DNA of 64,000 nucleotides from Erysipelotrichaceae bacterium NK3D112 (GTDB taxonomy: Bacteria; Bacillota_I; Bacilli_A; Erysipelotrichales; Erysipelotrichaceae), in contig JNJQ01000001.1 of assembly GCA_000701725.1 (NCBI GenBank), positions 186,001 through 250,000 on the forward strand. The letters are read 5' to 3'. The first letter of the stretch is position 1. Each line of letters starts with the position of its first letter. The notes beneath the pieces are model-generated. The model was given only the letters and a program-made list of their open reading frames with translations, was not told the origin of the DNA and made no database searches. This document shows, piece after piece, positions 10,926-15,469 of this stretch. The position numbers were made by a program, and so were the translations under genes.

Positions 10926-10954
10926 TTGCATTACGGTACGTGTATTGCTAGAAT
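10926..10954 (+). promoter_or_regulatory. Candidate promoter of the pyr operon leader
   Basis: TTGCAT (10926-10931), a 17-base spacer, then TGC-TAGAAT (10946-10954), an extended -10 close to the form seen elsewhere in this window. Predicted transcript start is near 10961, giving a leader of about 220 bases before pyrC. Confidence 0.6.
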
Positions 10955-10966
10955 TCATCTGAAAAT

Positions 10967-11005
10967 AAAAGGAACATCCGCATTTATGCCCATGATCCTT
11001 TTTTT
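10967..11005 (+). terminator. First hairpin with T tract (xerC terminator or leader pause hairpin)
   Basis: AAAAGGA-A-CAT pairs with ATG-A-TCCTTTT with one A/A mismatch, and an inner GCA/TGC pairing sits in the loop; seven T follow at 10999-11005. It could end the xerC transcript. If the promoter at 10926-10954 is used, it is inside the pyr leader and could act as a pause or first attenuator hairpin. Confidence 0.65.
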
Positions 11006-11026
11006 GGAAAAAAGAAAGGGCACGTT

Positions 11027-11128
11027 ATGAAGAGAAGCTGCGTATTACAGAAGCTGAATCAGATCGCGCGTACGATGCATGTCAATGCGTTCATTCTTTC
11101 TTTTTCTCATCACGATCAATATCTTTGA
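11027..11128 (+). CDS. Candidate 33-residue leader peptide of the pyr operon
   Basis: A small ORF with an AAAGGG ribosome site 6 bases before its ATG, coding 33 residues (begins MKRSCVLQKL, ends SHHDQYL). Its codons at about 11090-11108 form a T-rich stretch (TTCATTCTTTCTTTTTC), and the TGA stop at 11126-11128 overlaps the first bases of the terminator stem. This layout is that of pyrL ahead of enterobacterial pyrBI: when UTP is low, polymerase pauses in the U-rich stretch, the ribosome catches up, and a ribosome at the stop blocks the terminator. The peptide sequence itself probably does not matter. No homology to E. coli PyrL is claimed; function is inference from layout. Confidence 0.6.
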   Translation: MKRSCVLQKLNQIARTMHVNAFILSFSHHDQYL

Positions 11129-11161
11129 CAGCTTTCAGATTCATCGAAGCTGTCTTTTTTT
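11127..11161 (+). terminator. Attenuator-type terminator directly before pyrC
   Basis: Perfect 8-bp stem GACAGCTT (11127-11134) / AAGCTGTC (11147-11154) with a 12-base loop and seven T. It lies between the leader ORF stop codon and the pyrC ribosome site, so it would stop transcription before any pyr gene unless prevented. The left arm begins inside the leader stop codon. I see no sequence like the PyrR-binding loop in the leader. Confidence 0.85.
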
Positions 11162-11178
11162 GAAAAACGGAGGTTGTC

Positions 11179-12453
11179 ATGAAGCGCAGAATCACCAACG
11201 CGGAAGTGCTGTACAACGGCACTCTTCAGAAGCTTGAAATCCTCTTTGATGAAACCGGAATCCTTCGCGTCGCTGAAACAATCGACTGTGAGGAATGCGA
11301 AGTCATCGATGCGCACGGCTATGCGGTACTGCCCGGATTGATCGATGTGCATGTTCATCTGAGAGAACCCGGCTTTGAAGCCAAGGAAACAATCGCCACC
11401 GGCAGCGCGGCTGCCGCTCATGGCGGTTTCACAACCATCTTCGCCATGCCCAATCTGAATCCGTTCCCCGATTGCGCGGAAACGATGAAGCCTTATCTGG
11501 AAAAAATCAGAACAGACGCGGTTGTCAATGTGCTGCCTTACGGAACCATCACCAAAGGCGAAAAGGGTGCGGAAGTTTCCGATATGGCTGCCATGAATGA
11601 ACTCGGCATCCGCTGGTTCTCCGATGACGGCGTCGGCGTTGAAAACGACGCAATCATGGAAAAAGCACAGAAGGAAGTGAAACGGCTGGACGCTCTGATG
11701 GCATGCCATACAGAAGATATGAACTACCGCAGACCCGGTGCCTCTGTGCACGAATCTGGATATGCAGCTCAGAAGGGCTGGCTCGGCATTCCTTCCGAAT
11801 GCGAGAGCGAACAGCTCAAGCGCGATCTGAAACTGGCGGAGCAGACCGGTCTCAGATACCATGGCTGCCATATTTCCGCAAAGCAGAGCGTTGAGGCATT
11901 GCGTGAGGCCAAAGCAAACGGTGCGGATGTCAGTGCGGAAGTGACCGCTCATCATCTGCTTCTGGAAGAAGATGATGTCAAAGGCCCCAACTGGAAGATG
12001 AATCCGCCGCTAAGAAGCCATGAGGACAGAATGTCTCTGATTGAGGCGCTTGAGGACGGCACCCTGGATTTCATCGCCAGCGACCATGCCCCGCATACAT
12101 ATGCGGACAAAGATAAACCGATGGCACAGGCTGCCTTCGGCATCATTTCACTGGAAACCAGCTTCCCGCTGCTTTATACGGAGTTTGTAAAACGTCAGAA
12201 GAGATGGACACTGCCTCAGCTTGTAGAATGGATGAGCACAAAACCGGCAAAGCGCTTCGGCCTGGAAAACAAAGGCGTGATTCGGGAAGGCGCCGCCAGT
12301 GATCTCATCATTGTCAATCTTGATACCGAAACAGTGATCCACGCGGATCAATTCGCCTCCAAAGGCAGAAACACACCGTTTGACGGCTGGACAGTCAATT
12401 GCGAAATCACTGAAACCATCTGCGGCGGAAAAACCGTATATCAAAAGAACTGA
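11179..12453 (+). CDS. pyrC: Dihydroorotase
   Basis: A 424-residue zinc amidohydrolase that closes carbamoyl-aspartate to dihydroorotate, third step of UMP synthesis. The metal-binding HVHLREPGFEAKE motif (about residues 58-70) and the SDHAPH motif (about 305) of class I dihydroorotases are intact, along with GLIDVHVHL. The ribosome site GGAGG lies 7 bases before ATG. It is the first gene of pyrC-K-D-F-E. The genes for carbamoyl-phosphate synthase and aspartate transcarbamoylase are not in this operon. Confidence 0.96.
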   Translation: MKRRITNAEVLYNGTLQKLEILFDETGILRVAETIDCEECEVIDAHGYAVLPGLIDVHVHLREPGFEAKETIATGSAAAAHGGFTTIFAMPNLNPFPDCAETMKPYLEKIRTDAVVNVLPYGTITKGEKGAEVSDMAAMNELGIRWFSDDGVGVENDAIMEKAQKEVKRLDALMACHTEDMNYRRPGASVHESGYAAQKGWLGIPSECESEQLKRDLKLAEQTGLRYHGCHISAKQSVEALREAKANGADVSAEVTAHHLLLEEDDVKGPNWKMNPPLRSHEDRMSLIEALEDGTLDFIASDHAPHTYADKDKPMAQAAFGIISLETSFPLLYTEFVKRQKRWTLPQLVEWMSTKPAKRFGLENKGVIREGAASDLIIVNLDTETVIHADQFASKGRNTPFDGWTVNCEITETICGGKTVYQKN

Positions 12454-12473: not shown

Positions 12474-14806
<2,333 letters not shown>

Positions 14807-14820
<14 letters not shown>

Positions 14821-15469
14821 GAAGCAGTTTACCGAATTCATGCTCAGCTGCAACGCCCTGAAATTCGGTGATTTCACTCTGAAATCAGGCAGAAGAAGCC
14901 CGTTCTTCATGAATGCCGGCGCCTATGTGGAAGGCGGACAGCTCCATGACATCGCATGCTATTACGCAAAGGCGATCAATGACAACTTCGGTCTGGACTT
15001 CGATGTCCTCTTCGGTCCGGCTTACAAGGGCATTCCGCTGGCAGTCGCAACCGCGATGGCAATCCATGAGCTCTATGGCAAGGAAGTGCGCTATTGTTCC
15101 AACCGCAAAGAGGTCAAGGACCATGGCGACACAGGTATCCTGCTTGGCTCCAAGCTCAAGGATGGCGACAGAGTGATCATGATCGAGGATGTCACCACCT
15201 CCGGAAAGTCCATGGAAGAGACCGTACCGATCGTCAAGGCGCAGGCCAATGTTGAAATCAAGGGCCTGATCGTTTCACTCAACCGCAACGAAAAGGGCAA
15301 GGGAAACAAGACCGCCCTGGCTGAGATTTCCGACCTTTACGGCTTCAAGACAGCGGCGATTGTCTCCATGCCCGAAGTGGTGGAGATTCTCAAAGAGAAG
15401 AATGCTCTGAGCGAAGAGCTGCTTGAAAGAATTGATGCATATTACGCTGAATACGGCGCAACTGAATAA
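14807..15469 (+). CDS. pyrE: Orotate phosphoribosyltransferase
   Basis: A 220-residue enzyme that joins orotate and PRPP to form OMP. The PRPP-binding loop VIMIEDVTTSGKSMEE is intact (about residues 121-136), and FKSGRRSPFF-like substrate residues are near the N-terminus (FTLKSGRRSPFFMNAG). The start is ATG 14807 with AAGGAG upstream; an upstream in-frame ATG at 14771 lies deep in pyrF. It is the last gene of the operon. Confidence 0.96.

Follow-up and report, generated by a model that had tools for sequence, protein, structure and literature searches.

A candidate ribosome-coupled pyrimidine attenuator ahead of pyrC and pyrBI in Erysipelotrichaceae without PyrR

Genomic setting and anatomy of the pyrC leader

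The window, a stretch of 64,000 nucleotides, belongs to an uncultured Erysipelotrichaceae bacterium (Bacillota) with an assembly of 3.15 Mb and a completeness of 96%. The closest named record to the window PyrC was that of the metagenome-assembled isolate RUG10685 (93% identity), and further relatives carried the label 'Solobacterium sp.' with ruminants as the source. The gene order around the leader (10926-11178) was xerD, leader, then pyrC, pyrK, pyrD, pyrF and pyrE. The features were as follows.

10926..10954, + strand: promoter TTGCAT-17-TAGAAT with extended -10 (TGC TAGAAT), by sequence and promoter scan; recurs in relatives
10967..11005, + strand: 5' hairpin P1 (AAAAGGA...TCCTTTT) ending in 7 T; fold z -3.4; also found ahead of pyrB in sister genomes
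11015..11020, + strand: AAAGGG, a weak ribosome site for the leader ORF, with a 4-nt core match to the consensus
11027..11128, + strand: leader ORF, ATG to TGA, 33 codons plus TGA, peptide MKRSCVLQKLNQIARTMHVNAFILSFSHHDQYL; matched by counterparts at two operons in each of 11 species
11094..11108, + strand: T-rich tract TTCTTTCTTTTTCTC, 11 of 15 T, containing TTNTTT motifs; proposed UTP-sensitive pause, possibly NusG-assisted
11127..11161, + strand: intrinsic terminator, stem GACAGCTTT/GAAGCTGTC (11127-11154) followed by T7; the left arm overlaps the ORF stop
11168..11172, + strand: ribosome site of pyrC, GGAGG region, by sequence
11179..12453, + strand: pyrC (dihydroorotase), first structural gene of the operon; TIGR00857 score above the cut-off
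12474..15469, + strand: remainder of the controlled operon, with pyrK at 12474, pyrD at 13208, pyrF at 14110 and pyrE at 14807-15469

The original prediction had described a promoter, a small ORF with its own ribosome site, a T-rich stretch and a terminator starting within the stop codon, and all of these were found at the places it had given. Transcription is predicted to start near 10961, and the TAGAAT box with its extended -10 was present in the pyrC leaders of nearly all relatives. The start region reads GAAAAU in the window and GAACAGG or GACAGG in relatives, a comparison made with pyrG-type reiterative transcription in mind and with starts that are predicted only. The TGA stop of the leader ORF (11126-11128) overlaps the first bases of the terminator stem, and 18 nt separate the T-rich tract from that stem.

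Taken singly, the terminator, the ORF and the T-rich tract were modestly improbable. The terminator stem with its T7 gave -11.6 kcal/mol, and 5 of 200 shuffles were equally stable. An ORF of at least 20 codons led by a Shine-Dalgarno sequence and ending at the terminator occurred in 1.5% of dinucleotide shuffles of the window leader, and an equally T-rich stretch at the same place occurred in 2.4%. The fold of the whole leader was no more stable than that of shuffles (z -0.64). When 86 terminator-like hairpins of the window were scanned, only the pyrC leader had a free-standing short frame that ends at its hairpin; three more matches each overlapped longer genes. A 14-codon frame (10986-11030) overlaps the start of the leader ORF and ends in its ATGA; the relatives inspected did not keep it as a short ORF of its own.

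The motif GAAGCTG is present in two copies within the leader ORF (11034-11057) and in one copy in the right arm of the terminator, and it makes an alternative pairing of the left arm possible. This possibility applies to the window species and is not conserved. An antiterminator formed by the left arm of the terminator and these repeats was rejected, as the duplex was like that of shuffles and was not conserved.

The leader design in related genomes

A total of 70 genomes of the window's GTDB genus were searched. In 11 of these, pyrC was the first gene after xerD, and a small ORF and a terminator lay between its promoter and the gene. At the separate pyrB locus of the same 11 species, the stretch directly 5' of the gene likewise contains a promoter and a small ORF, together with a T-rich tract and a terminator, and in the window genome pyrI follows this pyrB to form a pyrBI operon. 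As far as records show, the clade's genomes were assembled from metagenomes. The combination of small ORF, T-rich tract and terminator directly ahead of the gene was found in all 22 leaders (pyrC and pyrB of 11 species), with terminator energies from -10 to -19.5 kcal/mol. The pyrB and pyrC leaders had no evident common sequence, and the recurrence of the design in unlike sequences at two unlinked operons points to one shared architecture.

Of the 22 leaders, 21 had the ORF stop within -6 to +26 nt of the terminator stem; the exception was the pyrC leader of G011, whose ORF crosses the terminator to end at the start codon of pyrC, nearer to E. coli pyrL. For nine species, after two near-duplicates were dropped, the real ATG was kept fixed and the sequence from the ATG to the terminator was shuffled. 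A stop within -6 to +26 nt was observed in 8 of 9 pyrC leaders against 1.8 expected (P 9e-7) and in 9 of 9 pyrB leaders against 2.7 expected (P 4e-6). These P values are somewhat generous since the bounds were taken from the same data, and they overstate independence because the species are related, so that they are strong but inexact.

The T-rich stretch was matched by at most 5% of shuffles in 15 of 22 leaders, and its distance to the stem ranged from 0 to 21 nt. The leader peptides varied freely even among near relatives, with some N-terminal similarity kept among the pyrB leaders of the window's subclade. The T-rich stretches encode ILSFSH, VFSFFS, VFIYDS, SVLFP, ISLSVL and TYFFNL, a mixture of Phe, Leu, Ser, Ile and Val, which indicates that the recurring feature is the U content and not one amino acid. 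Overall, alignment of the leader in relatives, proposed earlier as a check, turned out favourably at pyrC and, unforeseen, at the separate pyrBI operon. The reading of the leader as a pyrL-like attenuator gained support from an ORF, a T-rich tract and a stop close to the terminator that are kept in 11 species while the peptide mostly is not.

Some leaders had details of their own. In four species (L082, L086, L087 and L090) the ATG of the pyrBI leader ORF lies 8-9 nt past the -10 box and has no ribosome site, as if on a leaderless transcript. In G014 an alternative 47-codon frame from ATGGATATG, also ending at TGACAGC, was considered possible, but the 31-codon frame has a strong ribosome site. 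In addition, a different conserved leader, CCTGGAAGGCGGCC...ATGCAGCCTTCGGGAATGTCCTGGGGGCT followed by a T-rich stretch, was seen ahead of pyrB at L125 and L126 (G009 and G074, with no pyrR match).

Absence of PyrR

PyrR is the usual pyrimidine attenuation regulator of Bacillota. A search with NF003549 gave no pyrR match over the cut-off in any of the 11 genomes with ORF leaders, against 25 positives among the 70 congeners. The PyrR RNA (RF00515) was not found in the window genome, nor in the leader at a permissive threshold, and nothing relevant came up when the window, 16 related loci and, at E values up to 10, the leader itself were run against Rfam. The original prediction had seen neither a PyrR-type loop nor a pyrR gene, and both absences held in the Rfam search of the leader and in every genome carrying such a leader. 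A midpoint-rooted PyrC tree of 43 genomes placed all sampled pyrR-positive genomes on one side; the other side held 28 genomes, all without pyrR, and all 11 genomes with ORF leaders were among them. The best reading of these sequence comparisons is that a ribosome-coupled attenuator replaced PyrR in the window's lineage.

The leaders L020-L024, L027 and L029-L031 have UCUUUAAAUCGAUACGAGAUAUCGGCAAGA or close variants followed by a terminator upstream of pyrC, and nearly all of these congeners have pyrR. The UCUUUAAAUCGAUACGAGAUAUCGGCAAGA leader of pyrR-positive congeners resembles the PyrR loop, and Rfam RF00515 gives it no score.

The 5' hairpin P1 and the origin of the leader ORF

P1 is terminator-like and lies approximately 45 nt after the predicted start site. 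Its fold z ranged from -1.5 to -4.8 across 16 genomes, and its 3' arm could instead pair with the ribosome site of the leader ORF and hide it. P1 was missing from clade B and from G032, which shows that it is not essential to the core design, and it has no place in a simple pyrBI-type model. A P1-type hairpin (AAAAGG...CCUUUUUUU with a U run), placed after the pyr promoter and before the first ribosome site, was also seen in most pyrR-less congeners, with or without a leader ORF; ahead of pyrB it was located at L008-L011, L013-L015, L052, L053, L056, L058, L060 and L062. By its sequence, this hairpin looks like an attenuator without an evident sensor.

Of 30 other family members examined, 29 had the end of pyrB directly ahead of pyrC, and no leader of this kind separated the two genes. 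Among the 17 pyrR-less sisters with pyrB-pyrC, 13 showed the promoter followed by P1, after which came a ribosome site and the start codon of pyrB itself, without a leader ORF. Promoter and P1 were retained in the window's subclade (G000, G084, G014, G085, G078 and G079), where the leader ORF begins at the position of the pyrB start in the sisters. The promoter-P1 block aligned better than all 300 shuffles in 9 of 10 comparisons. In addition, the first codons of the leader ORF resemble the PyrB N-terminus in the window's subclade (permutation p 0.002), with no signal in the other clade (p 0.25). The shared promoter, P1 and start position and the likeness of the first codons suggest that the leader ORF of the subclade is probably a remnant, the retained start of a lost pyrB. 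The sister genomes may thus offer a before-and-after view of a regulatory leader ORF born from a dying gene.

By inspection, the pyrBI operons of order-level relatives (L113-L117 and L119-L123) had no leader of this kind, so that the pyrBI leader probably arose within the window's lineage and was not brought in with pyrBI. The PyrC tree was compatible with one to three origins of the pyrC leader. The full scenario, in which a Bacillota lineage lost PyrR and independently evolved pyrBI-type coupled UTP attenuators at both operons, with the ORF of the subclade being the start of a deleted pyrB, is put forward tentatively, with slightly less belief for it than against it.

Proposed mechanism and alternative explanations

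The leader is fairly likely to be a UTP-sensing transcription attenuator of the E. coli pyrBI type, with the same design in unrelated sequence at pyrBI, which replaced PyrR and in the subclade took its ORF from a lost pyrB. The parts, their geometry, their conservation and the absence of pyrR are read from the sequences, and from these it is inferred that the ORF is translated, that polymerase pauses, responds to UTP and is coupled to the ribosome, and how the leader originated. Transcription would begin near 10961 and a ribosome would load onto the small ORF. With plentiful UTP, polymerase would pass the T-rich tract fast and leave the ribosome behind, so that the terminator would fold and the RNA would end before pyrC. 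With scarce UTP, polymerase would pause in the T-rich tract, possibly with the help of NusG, and the ribosome would close the gap. When polymerase resumed, the ribosome arriving at the stop codon would cover the left arm of the terminator and the operon would be transcribed.

In E. coli pyrL, limiting UTP pauses polymerase and the coupled ribosome prevents formation of the terminator hairpin (PMC10135430). When a ribosome sits at a stop codon lying a few nt ahead of a terminator, termination in E. coli falls from approximately 90% to less than 10%, an effect that is gone at distances of more than 27 nt (PMC4824070). All leader stops described here lie in the repressing range of that study, within the terminator or past it. 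In B. subtilis, NusG uses an asparagine-threonine pair for pausing at TTNTTT (PMC12288461). The NusG of the window genome carries the pro-pausing NT residues (VVRNTPGVTGF), and 14 of the 22 leaders have TTNTTT motifs within the 50 nt that precede the terminator. NusG could thus assist the pause, though not in every leader. Polymerase outruns ribosomes in B. subtilis, which is known as runaway transcription (PMC13323073), and coupling in Bacillota would thus need a special pause. Rho was not found in 21 congeneric genomes, where the best matches, at approximately 466 codons and 50 bits, resemble subunits of ATP synthase, and the coding-strand purine bias in the window ORFs was 52.6%; neither of these settles coupling.

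A terminator that merely lowers or insulates expression, for instance against read-through from xerD, with a small ORF that is incidental or keeps the leader translated and with no sensing at all, is one alternative; a single such ORF could arise in 1.5% of shuffles. This is considered unlikely in view of the recurrence of the ORF, the T-rich tract and the close stop and terminator in 22 leaders of differing sequence at two unlinked operons, and of the family members outside the clade, which have pyrB directly before pyrC with no such leader. The terminator also sits downstream of the pyr promoter, where an insulator against xerD is unneeded. Slightly less probable still is a ribosome-mediated attenuator with a signal other than UTP, such as a charged tRNA, the overall rate of translation or a pause that NusG sets independently of nucleotide sensing. 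The TTNTTT motifs in 14 of 22 leaders and a NusG of the pro-pausing type would fit such a device, and the B. subtilis tlrB and vmlR leaders employ NusG pauses (PMC12288461, PMC9226507). However, the leaders have no repeated codon for a single amino acid and lack a conserved antiterminator, pairing between the left arm and the leader was no better than in shuffles (p > 0.05) in 21 of 22, and the controlled genes are exclusively pyrimidine genes. An amino-acid attenuator of the trp or his type was judged unlikely for the lack of codon runs and of a conserved antiterminator.

The usual reliance of Bacillota on PyrR and the conserved P1, which could serve as a binding site, would suit a terminator set by an unfamiliar RNA-binding protein or by a ligand-binding RNA in the manner of PyrR. 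This is very improbable given that none of the 11 genomes has pyrR, that the leader has no relevant Rfam family even at the permissive threshold, and that no structure besides P1 and the terminator was seen to be common to the clades, with P1 itself lacking in clade B and G032. Sensing of UTP through a coupled ribosome is the reading preferred here. If it is correct, UTP sensing by a race between ribosome and polymerase was reached twice in evolution and is able to replace a dedicated regulatory protein, and close ribosome-polymerase coupling can serve regulation even in the phylum of B. subtilis, with its runaway transcription. The leaders would then be a natural test of close ribosome-polymerase coupling in Bacillota, in view of B. 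subtilis polymerase outrunning ribosomes, and this tension with the coupling model also makes the finding worth testing.

Comparison with known systems

A coupled leader-peptide attenuator has reportedly been proposed for a Thermus pyr operon, which qualifies the earlier description of the window's attenuator as one outside the proteobacteria. Thermus has pyrR too and belongs to a different phylum. The PyrR attenuator of Bacillota likewise has an intrinsic terminator in the pyr leader, and congeners that keep pyrR (leaders L020-L023 and others) apparently use it, whereas the window's lineage has neither the pyrR gene nor the binding loop.

Leader-peptide attenuators are known in Bacillota from the his leaders of bacilli (PMC2965389), tlrB (PMC6851288) and vmlR (PMC9226507). 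These share a leader ORF and a terminator with the leaders described here, and tlrB and vmlR have NusG-dependent pauses, but they sense histidine supply or antibiotics and none of them serves pyrimidines. No report of a pyrimidine leader-peptide attenuator in Bacillota was found in a literature search whose coverage took in a minority of subscription papers.

The closest likeness is to E. coli pyrBI (mechanism described in PMC10135430 and PMC5021804) and its leader pyrL, which has a short leader ORF, an internal U-rich tract and an intrinsic terminator that abuts the pyr gene and is overlapped by the ORF. The T tract lies approximately 20 nt from the stem in pyrL and 18 nt from it in the window, and of the two operons controlled here one is likewise pyrBI. 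Unlike in E. coli, the host is a member of Bacillota, pyrCKDFE is controlled as well, an extra 5' hairpin lies ahead of the ORF in the window's subclade and the UTP response is predicted from sequence. The pyrL ORF runs through its terminator, whereas 21 of the 22 ORFs here end at the terminator or within it. There is no evident sequence similarity between the two systems, and the window's attenuator is probably of independent origin and convergent with E. coli pyrBI.
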